From Mesorhizobium australicum WSM2073 (GTDB taxonomy: Bacteria > Pseudomonadota > Alphaproteobacteria > Rhizobiales > Rhizobiaceae): a stretch of DNA of 64,000 bases. The notes below the pieces were generated by a model that saw only the letters and a program-made list of their open reading frames with translations, was not told where the DNA came from and ran no database searches. Where the stretch lies: NCBI RefSeq assembly GCF_000230995.2, contig NC_019973.1:3610001-3674000 (forward strand), written 5' to 3'. A program made the translations under genes and the position numbers. Shown piece after piece: positions 19,316 through 38,215 of the stretch (the stretch's first letter is position 1; every line of letters starts with the position of its first letter).

Positions 19316-19967
19316 ACGTGGCGGCAAGGGTGCTCCGATAAGGTCGGAGCGCTGCGGATGGGATTGAGATGCCGCCCTGTACGGCGGCTACTGGCTGCTG
19401 ACGCAAGGTCATGTAGCCTGCCAATTCGCAGCGCTAACCAGATGATTGCACAAAAAAAATGCAAGGCACAAGGCCTTGCAATTAAACGCGTCCGATCTGT
19501 TTCCGGTATCCGGCGGCAGCGAATAACCGCGCCTAGATCGCATCCTCCCAAGACTTTGACCGCGTAGGAGAGCAGATTTTTTTCTGCCCTCTCGGTTATC
19601 GGGGCACATTAGCCCAACGGAAATGAAAATGTCACGAAGAATTTTGCCTTGAAACGGGCAATCTCGTGCTGCACTGCACAATAGTGCGGCAGGCTTTGCT
19701 TTTGAAACGTCCAGTCAGGCTCGACAGAGCCTTTGCGGCATGTTCGCAATTGACGCGCGCAAAGAATTGACGGCCAAACCCGAAGAGGTTCGGTGCGTTC
19801 CATTGTCGGCGCGGGTCGATCCGGAAGCGAGGGATTCGGGCTCGGAAGGGGCCTACGTGGTGGGATGGCCGGGTTTCCATTCGGTCATGAAATCGCTATG
19901 AAGCCGGGGCAAGCAAGCCTGCGCCGCGCCGATTCTGGCGTGGCCATTCTCATTCACGGACCTGTCC
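19316..19967. other. Gene-poor spacer before proS
   Basis: No convincing reading frame was found in these 652 bases; the short frames present have no ribosome site or recognisable product. Two hairpins stand out: TGCAAGGC/GCCTTGCA with a five-base loop at 19460-19480, preceded by a run of eight A, and an imperfect GAGAGCAG stem with a T-rich loop at 19568-19593. The stretch is less GC-rich than its surroundings and probably holds the proS promoter; no clear -35/-10 pair was identified. Confidence 0.6.
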
Positions 19968-21296: not shown

Positions 21297-22579
21297 GCGA
21301 GGCGGCGGCAGCGCGATCGGCGGGCGCCGGCCCTTTTTCCATCTTCGAGCGCACGGTCGCCTGGCGCTATTTGCGTTCGCGGCGCAAGGAGACGGTGATC
21401 TCGGTGATCGCCTCGATCTCTTTTCTCGGCATCATGCTGGGCGTCGCCACGCTGATCGTGGTCATGGCGGTGATGAACGGCTTCCGCGCCGAGCTTTTGA
21501 CGCGCATCCTTGGCGTCAACGGCCATCTGATCGTGCAGCCGCTCGATTCACCGCTTGAGGACTATGCCCAGGTCGCCAGCCGCATCAACGGCGTACCCGG
21601 GGTCAAATACGCCATCCCGCTGATCGACGGCCAGGTGCTCGCGCAAGGCAATGTCGGCGGCGGCACCGGCGCGCTGGTGCGCGGCATCCGGGGTGAAGAT
21701 CTCGGCAAGATCGCCATCGTGGCCAGCAACATCAAGCAAGGCACGCTCGCCGATTTCGATACCGGCGAGGGTGTCGCCATCGGCAAGCGCATGGCCGAGA
21801 ATCTCGGCCTGACGCTCGGCGATACCATTACCTTGATCTCGCCGGACGGGGATGTGACGCCGCTCGGCACCACACCGCGCATGAAGGGCTACAAGATCGC
21901 GGCGATCTTCGAGGTCGGCATGTCTGAATATGACACGTCGATCGTCTACATGCCGTTCTCCGAAGCGCAGCTCTACTTCAACATGGACGGCCGGGCGCAG
22001 ACGATCGAGATTTATGTCGACAATCCCGACGATGTCGACGCGCTGAAACCCAAGGTGGAAGCGGCGGCGCAGCGGCCGATCGACATGGTCGACTGGCGCC
22101 AGCGCAACGAGACCTTCTTTTCGGCTCTGCAGGTCGAACGCAACGTCATGTTCATGATCCTGACGCTGATCGTGCTGGTGGCGGCGCTCAACATCATTTC
22201 CGGACTGATCATGCTGGTGAAGGACAAGGGGCATGACATCGCCATCCTGCGCACCATGGGCGCCTCGCGCGGCGCCATCCTGCGCATCTTCCTGATGACT
22301 GGGGCGGCGATCGGCGTGACGGGCACGCTCGCCGGCGTGCTGCTCGGCGTCGTGATCTGCACCAATATCGAATCGATCCGCCAGTTCTTCTCCTGGATGA
22401 CCGGCAAGGTGCTGTTCAACCCCGAGCTCTATTTCCTCAGCCAGTTGCCGGCCAAGATGGATCCGCGCGAGACGACCTATGTCATCATCATGGCGCTTGC
22501 GCTGTCCTTCCTGGCTACGGTGTTTCCGGCATGGCGGGCGGCCCGCCTCGATCCGGTCGAAGCCTTGAGGTACGAGTAG
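21293..22579 (+). CDS. lolC: Lipoprotein-releasing ABC transporter permease LolC/LolE
   Basis: Inner-membrane subunit of the Lol system that extracts outer-membrane lipoproteins. The 428 aa protein has the layout of the family: an N-terminal transmembrane helix (about 37-60), a large periplasmic MacB-like domain, then three helices at the C terminus. Conserved segments are [20 protein letters not shown] and [10 protein letters not shown]. Alphaproteobacteria usually have a single LolC/E-type (LolF) gene, so C versus E cannot be assigned strictly. Confidence 0.95.
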
Positions 22580-23259
22580 TGGCCGAAGTCATTATCGAGC
22601 TGAAGAGCGTCGAACGGCACTACGTCCAGGGGCCGCGCAAGCTCACCATCCTGAACGGCGCCGATTTCGCGCTGCGGCGCGGTGAAATGGTGGCGCTGGT
22701 GGCCCCGTCGGGCACCGGCAAATCGACGCTGCTGCATACGGCCGGGCTGTTGGAGCGGCCGGATGCCGGCGACGTGATCCTGTCCGGACGCGCCTGTGGC
22801 CGGCTGTCCGACGACGAGCGCACCTCGATCCGCCGCAACGATGTCGGCTTCGTCTATCAGTTCCATCATTTGCTGCCGGAGTTCTCCGCGCTGGAAAACA
22901 TCATGATGCCGCAGCTCATCAAGGGCCTGCCGCGCAAGGAGGCGTCCGAGCGCGCGGCGCAACTGCTCGACTACATGCAGATCGGCAAGCGGGCGTCGCA
23001 CCGGCCATCCGAGCTGTCCGGCGGCGAGCAGCAGCGCGTCGCCATCGCGCGTGCGGTCGCTAATGCGCCGCTGGTGCTGCTCGCCGACGAGCCCACCGGC
23101 AACCTCGACCCGGTCACAGCCTCCTACGTGTTCGAGGCGCTGGAGGCACTGGTGCGGCAATCGGGCCTCGCGGCGCTGATCGCCACCCACAATCACGAGC
23201 TTGCATCGCGCATGGACCGGCGCGTCACGTTGGCCGACGGCAAGGTGGTGCCGCTCTAA
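22579..23259 (+). CDS. lolD: Lipoprotein-releasing ABC transporter ATPase LolD
   Basis: Cytoplasmic ATPase of the Lol system, 226 aa. Walker A is APSGTGKS, the signature is LSGGEQQR, Walker B ends [11 protein letters not shown], and the H-loop is ATHNHELA. The frame is open upstream, but the GTG at 22579 overlaps the lolC TAG by one base and gives the standard N terminus before [14 protein letters not shown]; the ATG at 22531 lies inside lolC. Confidence 0.94.
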
Positions 23260-23650
23260 GGACGATTCTCACCCGACGTGTACCGCGCGGGGGTAGCTTA
23301 GAACCGCCAGTGAGCGCTCATTGCGATCAGAGTGGACGATATCGCGCTCGTCGCCAGGATGGCCAACCAAATTACGAGATTGCGAGAGAGGCGCCGCCGG
23401 CGACCTTGTCGCATACGCTTTCGCCAGCGTTCACCTTGATTTGCGCCTCCGTATCTCCCCATGTCGATCGCTCAGCAATGCCTCAGGCCCAGGCATTTTC
23501 GGCTCAGCCAAAATTTAATACAAGCGCTCGCTAATTTGTTCTTCCCGGGCTGAAGCCTACCCTGGCAAGCTTCCAACTCCCTCTCTTAGCGACCAATTAA
23601 CGTTTCGCTAACCGTGCACAGTTCCCCGCCCATGGCCATACCTCCCAGCG
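23260..23650. other. Spacer after lolD, nothing recognised
   Basis: About 390 bases without a supported gene. Two short overlapping frames here have no ribosome site and atypical composition and were not accepted. No strong terminator hairpin was seen. Composition becomes AT-richer toward the promoter at 23652. Confidence 0.5.
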
Positions 23651-23651
23651 G

Positions 23652-23680
23652 TTGACAATGGAACAAAATTAGAACAAATT
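23652..23680 (+). promoter_or_regulatory. Promoter with LexA-type SOS box (GAAC-N7-GAAC)
   Basis: A perfect -35 hexamer TTGACA is at 23652-23657. Immediately downstream, at 23661-23675, is GAAC, seven bases (AAAATTA), GAAC: exactly the direct-repeat LexA operator described for rhizobia and other alphaproteobacteria. It lies in the promoter spacer, where a bound repressor would block RNA polymerase. The -10 is weak (AAATTA-like, around 23675-23681). The site is 34 bases upstream of a 28-codon gene with a strong ribosome site. Confidence 0.7.
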
Positions 23681-23708
23681 AGAAACATATCCACAACAGG
23701 AGAGAGTT

Positions 23709-23795
23709 ATGACCGATTTGGTTCAGGATGTCGTCTCGCTGGTTTGCATGAGCGCGTTTCTTGTCTCCATGGCGATCTGGATCGGAGCCATGTGA
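23709..23795 (+). CDS. 28-aa single-helix membrane microprotein, putatively SOS-regulated
   Basis: A very short gene: ATG at 23709, TGA at 23793-23795, product MTDLVQDVVSLVCMSAFLVS followed by MAIWIGAM. It is preceded by AGGAGAGAG four bases upstream, close to an ideal Shine-Dalgarno. Residues about 8-26 form one hydrophobic helix; the N terminus is acidic. Together with the upstream LexA-type box this recalls SidA of Caulobacter crescentus, a 29-aa SOS-induced inner-membrane division inhibitor; no sequence homology to SidA is claimed. Not part of lolD or the protease gene. Function is inferred only from size, topology and promoter. Confidence 0.72.
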   Translation: MTDLVQDVVSLVCMSAFLVSMAIWIGAM

Positions 23796-23907
23796 TTTGG
23801 CGGCGTCGGCCGTCGCTGTTTCTCGAAGGCCAATGCCGCCCCGCCGTTAAGCTTTTCTTGCCGCAGCAAAGTTAGGGTGCGTCTCCAAGGCAGGGAGCAA
23901 CGTCCAG

Positions 23908-25158
23908 GTGTCGCCCATCGTCACGGCCATTCTCGTGGCCAGCAATCTCGGGCTGATCTTTCTCCTGATGACCGTGCCGCTTGGTTTGCGCACGGTCAGG
24001 TCGAGCCGCATCGTGGCGATGGACCGGCAGCGCCTGTGGCAGGCGCTGTGGCCGCTCGGCAGCGATGCCGGCTGGTCCGGCGAGATCCTGTCGGCGCAGC
24101 CGCTGGACGAAGAGGGCGTCGCCCGCGTCACGCTCTCTTGGGAAGGCCGCGATGGCAAGCCGATAGAGCGCAGGGCGCAGTTTGAAGATGTCGTCGAGGG
24201 CAGCCGCTTCTCGATGCGGGTGATCGAGGACACCGCGCTCGATAGCTCGTTCTGGAAGGACTATGGCGAGACCGCCGAACTGGTTTCGGAGGGAAGCGGC
24301 ACGCGCGTGACGCTCAGCCGGACCGACCGCTACCGCGGCGTGGCTTTCCTGGTGTTTCGCTATTTCGCCATGCGCCGCGAGCTCTCCAAGCTGCAGCGTT
24401 GGGCAAGGACCGGGCAGTATCGCAAGGGTGGCTGGTTCGAGCATCCGCTGAGCCAGGTCGGCTTTGCCGTGTTGTCGGCATTGATGCTGTGGCCGTTCTT
24501 CGGCCTTCACCTCGGCGGGCTGGCGCTGGCCGCGATCCTGACGTCGGTGGTGGCGCTGCACGAACTCGGCCACATGGCGGCGTTCCGGCTGACGGGCCAT
24601 CGCAGGGCGCGGATGATCTTCATCCCGCTGCTTGGCGGCATCGCCATTGGCGGCCGGCCCTATAACAGCCGTTTCGAAGTGGCCTTCGTGGCGTTGATGG
24701 GGGCGGGGTTTTCCGCCTTCCTGGTGCCGATCGTCATCGCCGCCAGCGTTCTTGCCGGCGGCGAGGGTCACAAGGCGGCTGCCGCGCTACTCGCCGCACT
24801 CGCAGGCTGCGCTGCCCTGTTCAACATCGCCAATCTGGTGCCGGTGTGGAAGTTCGACGGCGGCCAGGTGCTGCGCCAGATCTGCCCGGGGCCGGTCGTC
24901 CTGGCGCTGGCGTCCTTCTCGCTGCTTTCGGCCTTTCTGGCGCTTGGCTGGCGGGCCGGTTTTTCCCTTGGCTTCCTGCTCGCGGCCGGTGCGGTCTTTT
25001 CGATTCTCAGCCTGCTCACCGTCGGCAGCGGGGTGAAGCCACGTCACGAACTGGAGCCGATCGGCACTGTCGACCGTTTGGTCATCGCCGGGGCCTTGCT
25101 GGCGGTGTTCGCCATCCACGGCTGCGGCGTGCTGTGGGCGTCAGGGCAGTTGCTCTGA
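23908..25158 (+). CDS. M50-like membrane zinc metalloprotease
   Basis: A 416 aa membrane protein starting with GTG at 23908 after a CAGGGAG ribosome site. Residues 1-24 form a signal-anchor helix; residues about 30-160 look like a soluble SRPBCC/START-like domain (by pattern only). The rest has about six helices with the zinc-protease motif HELGH (H218, E219, H222) and a later Asp in VPVWKFDGGQVL (D317), equivalent to the third ligand of site-2-protease-type M50 enzymes. Substrate unknown. It ends 19 bases before the convergent lipB. Confidence 0.88.
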   Translation: MSPIVTAILVASNLGLIFLLMTVPLGLRTVRSSRIVAMDRQRLWQALWPLGSDAGWSGEILSAQPLDEEGVARVTLSWEGRDGKPIERRAQFEDVVEGSRFSMRVIEDTALDSSFWKDYGETAELVSEGSGTRVTLSRTDRYRGVAFLVFRYFAMRRELSKLQRWARTGQYRKGGWFEHPLSQVGFAVLSALMLWPFFGLHLGGLALAAILTSVVALHELGHMAAFRLTGHRRARMIFIPLLGGIAIGGRPYNSRFEVAFVALMGAGFSAFLVPIVIAASVLAGGEGHKAAAALLAALAGCAALFNIANLVPVWKFDGGQVLRQICPGPVVLALASFSLLSAFLALGWRAGFSLGFLLAAGAVFSILSLLTVGSGVKPRHELEPIGTVDRLVIAGALLAVFAIHGCGVLWASGQLL

Positions 25159-37870: not shown

Positions 37871-38014
37871 GGCTGGCTTCCCGTGAGGGGTGCCAGCCGA
37901 CACCCGGCCATGAAGTTTGTCAATCGGGACGGGATGAGGGCAGCTTCGCCGATACGGCGCTCCTGCGCTGGCGGCTGTCGGAATTTGGTTTGCCGGGCGC
38001 GGCGAATTTCCCTA

Positions 38015-38215
38015 TAGTCCCCGATGTCGTCGGTTCCTTTTTGGAGCCAAGAGGGAATGCGGTGCGGGCAGGAATTCCTGCCCAATGCCGTGGCTGCCCC
38101 CGCAACTGTGTGCGGTAGTCCTCTCCATATGCCACTGAAGATTTTTCTTCGGGAAGGTGGGGAAGGGCGCTTATCCGCGAGCCAGGAGACCTGCCGGCGA
38201 CAGGAAACTGACTTC
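38015..38215 (+). ncRNA. Cobalamin (B12) riboswitch
   Basis: Upstream of cbtB lies a typical adenosylcobalamin aptamer: a P2/P3 region with GGAGCCAAGAGGGAAT, GGTGC, a GGGCAGGAATTCCTGCCC stem, GCTGCCCCCGCAACTGT, and the conserved B12 box GCCAGGAGACCTGCC at 38181-38195. Boundaries are approximate. It is expected to turn off the cobalt uptake/cobalamin genes when B12 is plentiful. The ORFs that overlap it are not genes. Confidence 0.93.

Follow-up and report, generated by a model that had tools for sequence, protein, structure and literature searches.

The order Rhizobiales counts among its members symbionts that fix nitrogen, Agrobacterium and pathogens of animals. For the way in which these bacteria halt division once their DNA is damaged, the literature searched here (mostly titles and abstract openings, with few subscription papers) offers no description, and within the same scope no SOS-controlled microprotein of theirs is recognised. 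A short interval of the Mesorhizobium australicum WSM2073 genome raises the question of whether such a microprotein exists and what it might do. The interval lies in a window, the whole stretch of DNA that was analysed, of 64,000 nucleotides (NC_019973.1, positions 3,610,001 to 3,674,000 of the forward strand; window coordinates below count from its first letter). An earlier note had seen there TTGACA, a perfect GAAC-N7-GAAC repeat, a ribosome-binding site and a 28-codon frame for a single hydrophobic helix, and had read the whole as a SidA-like, damage-induced microprotein of the Rhizobiales. Direct reading of the window letters bears this observation out base for base, with every element at the place assigned to it (Table 1). 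A consensus scan of positions 23260-23950 finds no sigma-70 promoter, the -10 element of the microprotein gene being a poor match.

Table 1. Positions of the parts of the microprotein locus and of its neighbours in the window
Feature	Position	Strand	Basis or remark
-35 element TTGACA	23652..23657	+	sequence
LexA-type operator GAAC-N7-GAAC, GAACAAAATTAGAAC	23661..23675	+	sequence; lies after the -35 element and before the start codon
Degraded third half-site AAAC, at the next 11-bp step after the box	23683..23686	+	sequence; GAAC in many relatives
Shine-Dalgarno AGGAGAGAG	23698..23706	+	sequence
Single-helix membrane microprotein of 28 aa, SidA-like (predicted)	23709..23795	+	ATG at 23709, TGA at 23793-23795
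Terminator-like hairpin, weak, right after the microprotein stop codon	23798..23815	+	one hairpin, against 0.5 expected from shuffled sequence
lolD-type ABC ATPase, upstream neighbour	22579..23259	+	ABC_tran PF00005
M50-type membrane peptidase, downstream neighbour	23908..25158	+	PF02163

By itself the box is unconvincing, since its count stands at chance level in both the window and the genome. The exact GAAC-N7-GAAC pattern occurs three times in the window, where 1.63 occurrences would be expected and 23 of 100 shuffles reach three; genome-wide there are 164, against 174 for a reversed control pattern. The A+T-rich subset GAACAW-N5-GAAC is enriched (19 versus 6). Such counts are what would be expected if a chance frame simply lay behind a chance box and there were no gene at all. 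Conservation, however, goes beyond chance. An exact box is present within 90 nt upstream of the frame at 110 of 110 Mesorhizobium loci (91 distinct upstream sequences; two sets of 30 and 80 loci, partly from the same strains), and the remainder of the same loci holds 8 exact boxes in 1,073,140 strand-bases. The box mostly starts 37-48 nt ahead of the ATG, and at 64 of the 110 loci it is extended to three half-sites in 11-bp steps (GAAC-N7-GAAC-N7-GAAC). Among the 67 (of 88) distinct upstream sequences that share one register, the -35 element reads TTGACA in 51 and TTGACT in 15. The genus consensus before the ATG is TTGACaTT.gAACAAAATTAGAACAAA.T.cgAACATAtcaAcAACAGGAGagAGTt, with AACAGGAG of the Shine-Dalgarno sequence in capitals (at least 90%).

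The frame behind the box is conserved as well. It is found in all 37 Mesorhizobium genomes searched (G000-G036, that of the window included; E <= 0.01), and dN/dS is 0.077 among 66 distinct sequences of the genus (dS 0.57, dN 0.044). Of the 28 codons, 10 vary at the first position, 2 at the second and 23 at the third, and the five other reading frames are interrupted by stops in 66, 13, 20, 61 and 35 of these 66 sequences. For the wider family, with 77 distinct sequences, it comes to 0.24. The length is 28 residues in 190 of the 194 matches counted (L188 left out), two of which, L168 and L180, seem to have their start codon one or two codons ahead of the one adopted here. Coding under purifying selection is strongly supported.

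Used as a single sequence, the microprotein has no match in 24 genomes of other families at the same threshold (E <= 0.01); the window protein has none in plasmids, and together with L055, the other member scanned, it matches no Pfam or NCBIfam family at E up to 10. Within the taxonomic family of the window, a search with A1 gives a match in 215 of 297 genomes at E <= 1, many of them weak. From the better-scoring part of that search 85 loci were examined, of which 84 have enough upstream DNA (L198 is incomplete and was left out) and 76 of these carry an exact box. The eight that do not are L043, L188, L202, L207, L214, L217, L222 and L224, and at L188, L217, L222 and L224 there is no lolD alongside either. 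At the level of the order, profile A3 (52 rows) matches 126 of 297 genomes at E <= 0.1. An exact box is present at 66 of the 80 distinct loci taken down its ranking, some near-duplicates being skipped, and absent from 14; at loci that had no part in building the profile it occurs in 53 of 67, against 0.016 expected per upstream window in the same DNA. The protein search made no use of the box, which is therefore an independent sign that even the weak order matches are the same gene. These searches support a distribution that extends well across the Rhizobiales, and they strongly support the putative LexA operator upstream of the microprotein as a conserved element. Conservation of both frame and box in related genomes, on which the earlier note had made its reading depend, is thus what was found. 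Since frame, length, start, stop and box are kept across genus, family and order, the chance reading has practically no probability left, and it was rejected on the presence of the box at every genus locus examined.

The assignment of the box to LexA, which the earlier note had taken from rhizobia and their relatives, agrees with the genes that the box precedes in the source genome. The exact box GAACACAACTGGAAC lies 86 nt before the start of the LexA profile match of lexA (C1:4108718-4109455), and exact boxes also precede a TIGR03916 radical SAM gene (557 bits, cut-off 343.5; putative DNA modification or repair) and two ImuA-like genes, whose matches to NF033429 (E 5e-18 and 4e-13) fall under the curated NCBIfam cut-off. 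recA, considered as a clean control for the operator, was rejected, as GAACAAAAAAGGTAC, 73 nt upstream of it, has one mismatch to the box. Of the remaining 15 exact GAACAW-N5-GAAC sites, most are without assignment to a known SOS gene. Given the mismatch at recA and the ImuA-like scores below cut-off, there are few genes on which to base the definition of the operator. The LexA motif of Caulobacter, GTTC-N7-GTTC, is the opposite strand of the same pattern (PMC12700426, in part). Judged by the company that it keeps, GAAC-N7-GAAC is the SOS box of this genome.

In the microprotein an acidic N-terminus is followed by 21 uncharged residues: among 95 distinct 28-mers, residues 8-28 contain no K, R or H in 94 and no D or E in any, and the window protein has no charged residue beyond position 7. 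Its best 19-residue Kyte-Doolittle mean is 2.23, in line with the single hydrophobic helix of 28 residues that the earlier note had proposed, and the mean reaches 1.6 in all 95 28-mers, which predicts one transmembrane helix and a membrane location. The most constant residues are D7 (D in 94, E in one) and F17 (all 95), followed by S10 (88) and W24 (84). Helical periodicity of conservation is not significant (shuffle p 0.61), and a conserved helical face, as a binding face, was rejected on this ground.

Several proteins that inhibit division offer a comparison. One is SidA of Caulobacter, which acts on FtsW, FtsI and FtsN. SidA is an SOS-induced inner-membrane protein of 29 aa that interacts with FtsW and is suppressed by mutations in FtsW and FtsI (PMC4211646, in part). 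DidA, the second division inhibitor of Caulobacter, interacts with FtsN and is activated by DriD independently of the SOS response (PMC4211646, in part), whereas the window gene has a LexA-type box; the likeness drawn to DidA lies in the role at the late divisome that the microprotein may have. YneA of Bacillus subtilis and SosA of Staphylococcus aureus are SOS-induced division inhibitors as well, YneA interacting with FtsW, but belong to other phyla (PMC13396833, PMC6851548, in part).

We consider it fairly probable that the window gene encodes a LexA-repressed, probably monocistronic, 28-residue single-pass inhibitor of the divisome in the inner membrane, and that it corresponds in the Rhizobiales to sidA of Caulobacter. 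As long as the DNA is intact, LexA would occupy GAAC-N7-GAAC, often with three half-sites, downstream of the -35 element and ahead of the start codon, and would block RNA polymerase. Upon DNA damage, RecA would prompt the self-cleavage of LexA, allowing transcription of a short leader with a strong Shine-Dalgarno sequence. The peptide, predicted to insert into the membrane, may then bind FtsW, FtsI or FtsN of the late divisome and keep septal wall synthesis inactive until repair. By analogy with the known inhibitors, it is through these three proteins that division would be inhibited.

Membrane peptides of similar size can serve another end. TisB (29 aa) and DinQ (27 aa) of Escherichia coli are SOS-induced membrane peptides; both belong to the type I toxins, each with an antisense RNA and a long regulated leader, and TisB is amphipathic and charged. 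The main rival explanation is that the microprotein is a peptide of this sort, one that would act by membrane depolarisation and promote dormancy or persistence instead of inhibiting the divisome. It shares with them the size class, the type of regulation and, as far as predicted, the membrane as its location, and it too is a hydrophobic single helix. Its residues 8-28, however, are free of charge, as opposed to the amphipathic helix of TisB, and the short distance between box and ATG leaves no room for the long regulated leader that would serve an antisense RNA. As to an antisense partner, Rfam has no match at the locus, and the promoter scan of 23260-23950 shows no candidate site on either strand, although neither scan excludes such an RNA. 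Moreover, specific residues are kept (D7, S10, F17 and A22), and the gene has one steady site after lolD at most loci examined, whereas type I toxins are scattered. A depolarising toxin is regarded as unlikely.

The helix might instead be an SOS-specific regulator of some other target in the inner membrane, such as a transporter, a protease, ATP synthase or the machinery for lipids or wall precursors. Many bacterial microproteins bind other membrane proteins, and the conserved small residues S10, S15, A22, G26 and A27 suit helix packing. Yet in the papers found, the LexA-controlled membrane proteins SidA, YneA and SosA are described as stopping division, TisB and DinQ being the exceptions, and the phage copies considered below lie near recombination genes, as known phage division inhibitors do. 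We think a different target quite unlikely, and continue with division inhibition as the preferred reading.

The position of the gene bears on its relationship with sidA. It usually follows lolD, and in some genera it precedes dnaE1. Within the DNA examined, a lolD match (at least 55% identity) is present at 61 of the 85 family loci, 60 times upstream on the same strand and once (L202) on the opposite strand; DnaE1 starts 200-599 nt downstream on the same strand at 15 of the 85, and a relative of the M50 peptidase is found at 11. DnaE is absent from the window, where the M50 gene comes next and lolD is kept. For Caulobacter, sidA is CCNA_02004 (PMC11034885, in part), dnaE and recN are CC1926 and CC1983 (PMC1839093, in part), and recN is also CCNA_02062 (PMC12700426, in part). 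The tag offset of 79 seen for recN would put dnaE at about CCNA_02003-02005 and hence sidA at or beside dnaE1, by arithmetic on these tags and not from a map. The microprotein gene of the Rhizobiales is probably the positional counterpart of sidA, which we take to be CC_1927 in the Caulobacter numbering. The earlier note did not have this tie to sidA through a place beside dnaE1 among relatives. From that note, the coding frame, the predicted single helix, the conserved box and the reach across the order have stood, and SidA-like is to be understood as likeness in size, predicted topology, LexA direct-repeat box and probable dnaE1-side position in relatives, a likeness known without sequence alignment; it differs in that dnaE1 does not adjoin the microprotein gene in Mesorhizobium.

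The loci in front of dnaE1 also lend themselves to a different interpretation, namely that the frame is a leader peptide or upstream ORF (uORF) regulating the next gene, which is dnaE1 in many genomes, and that the peptide itself is unimportant. Consistent with this are the family loci with DnaE1 a few hundred nucleotides downstream and sORF25 of Sinorhizobium meliloti, a novel small ORF identified by Ribo-seq and proteogenomics in the 5'-UTR of dnaE1 and counted among possible uORFs (PMC10117765, in part). sORF25 sits where some members of the microprotein family sit; it may be another ORF, and that it belongs to the family is no more than a lead. Against a leader peptide, selection is seen on the amino acids, a terminator-like hairpin follows the stop codon, and in the window the next gene codes for an M50 peptidase and not for DnaE, yet frame and box persist. 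A leader peptide was rejected on the strength of the amino-acid selection and of this downstream gene, and is very unlikely.

Unboxed profile matches at the level of the class were dismissed as noise, at 20 of 20 new loci in one set and, in a second set of which weaker matches were only partly fetched, at 21 of the 22 parsed from 24 new loci. The sole boxed match outside the order among those 22 (L288) lies directly before dnaE1 and encodes a protein of 44 aa with 98% identity to the hypothetical protein Plav_3199 of Parvibaculum lavamentivorans. Its taxonomic family was searched in 40 genomes, 38 of which contain a relative at E <= 1, some of them weak; of 30 loci fetched, 24 could be parsed by motif, with the exact box at 23 and the start motif of DnaE downstream at 14. 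The promoter in this family often has two complete boxes 26 bp apart, not three half-sites in 11-bp steps (L407, L410, L411, L413-L416 and L423).

DnaE is found in 345 of 357 class genomes (completeness at least 90%), and the regions upstream of dnaE1 were inspected in a non-random sample of 90, comprising the 30 best matches and 60 chosen from the next ranks. An exact sense box and, after it, a short ORF that has a ribosome-site-like stretch are found in 16 of the 30 and 6 of the 60, i.e., 22 of 90, one of the six (G362) belonging to the order of the window; the other 68 do not have this combination, so the class does not share the arrangement throughout. Nine further dnaE1 regions show box and ORF in seven (f133, 2 of 2; f93, 4 of 4; f56, 1 of 2; f74, 0 of 1). 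Whether two box-bearing families belong to the Caulobacteraceae was checked through DnaE, which is Rhizomicrobium-like (f56) and Minwuia-like (f133) instead. Most of the short ORFs in the 22 regions are hydrophobic, with 32-47 aa, and many open with W/F-x-K/Q-D-x-x-A-L. Among the short ORFs before dnaE1, those outside the Parvibaculum family were located through their position and not with the profile, and the case for their kinship lies in position, box, size and pattern.

Some phages carry copies of the microprotein too. Three family loci (L217, L222 and L224) are second copies of 32-33 aa, without a box and in phage-like DNA, and their alignment, used as query, leads to 12 IMG/VR contigs (L514-L525) with relatives of 32-33 aa, none of which has a box within 250 nt upstream (0 of 12). 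Query A2 had given no confirmed relative in viral contigs, which were found later with the phage version, and the phage version has no match among INPHARED phages. All three contigs checked have an exonuclease VIII-type gene (phrog_412) that begins 0.5-1.1 kb downstream of the phage copy; the gene after it is RecT-like in two contigs and phrog_3657, of unknown function, in the third. Two contigs have a phage repressor upstream, and the one scanned with Pfam contains a Peptidase_S24 domain. Kil of phage lambda and KilR of the Rac prophage are small phage division inhibitors that likewise lie near early recombination genes and act on FtsZ. Since the known division inhibitors of E. coli phages lie near such genes, the phage setting agrees better with a division inhibitor than with a leader peptide, and phage copies upstream of quite different genes speak against a leader as well. 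The phage copies would act in the same way as the chromosomal peptide, under the control of the phage. Separately, genome G068 holds, besides a boxed copy, a second relative without a box (L188, MRDLVQDTCSFVAMGLFLISAAFWIGAL), with an ORF resembling a helix-turn-helix regulator about 0.6-1 kb upstream, and L188 may be another mobile copy.

A wider reading, to which we give even chances, would see in all these genes an old checkpoint peptide of the Alphaproteobacteria: a single LexA-controlled helix inherited from the side of dnaE1, with SidA as a member, which temperate rhizobial phages took up without the host operator, near their recE/recT genes, and which would arrest host division when a prophage is induced, much as a counterpart of lambda Kil in the membrane. 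The kind of protein, an SOS-induced single-helix inhibitor, is an ordinary one; the branch described here is well supported, wider than expected and common to phages. The microprotein gene with its operator represents one conserved candidate for damage-induced division arrest in the Rhizobiales. If the checkpoint-peptide reading is true, SidA goes from the inhibitor of one species to a family at the level of the class, and many Rhizobiales carry a microprotein that has no family name. Its many natural variants would then be of use in mapping the binding to the divisome, with the phage versions as a second natural test.

Some further sites were noticed in passing. Elsewhere in the source genome an exact box (L275, C1:1688932-1688946, minus strand) lies 28 nt before a hydrophobic ORF of 63 aa, possibly a further SOS membrane protein, and another site (L082, C1:959423-959437, plus strand), GAACAAAATAAGAAC, is near-identical to the microprotein operator, the sole downstream ORF from the scan being a 90-aa frame from +85. 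The window itself also contains a match to the sRNA ar9 of Alphaproteobacteria (RF02343) at 19453-19599 on the minus strand (125 bits) and a cobalamin riboswitch (RF00174) at 38014-38212 on the plus strand (119 bits).
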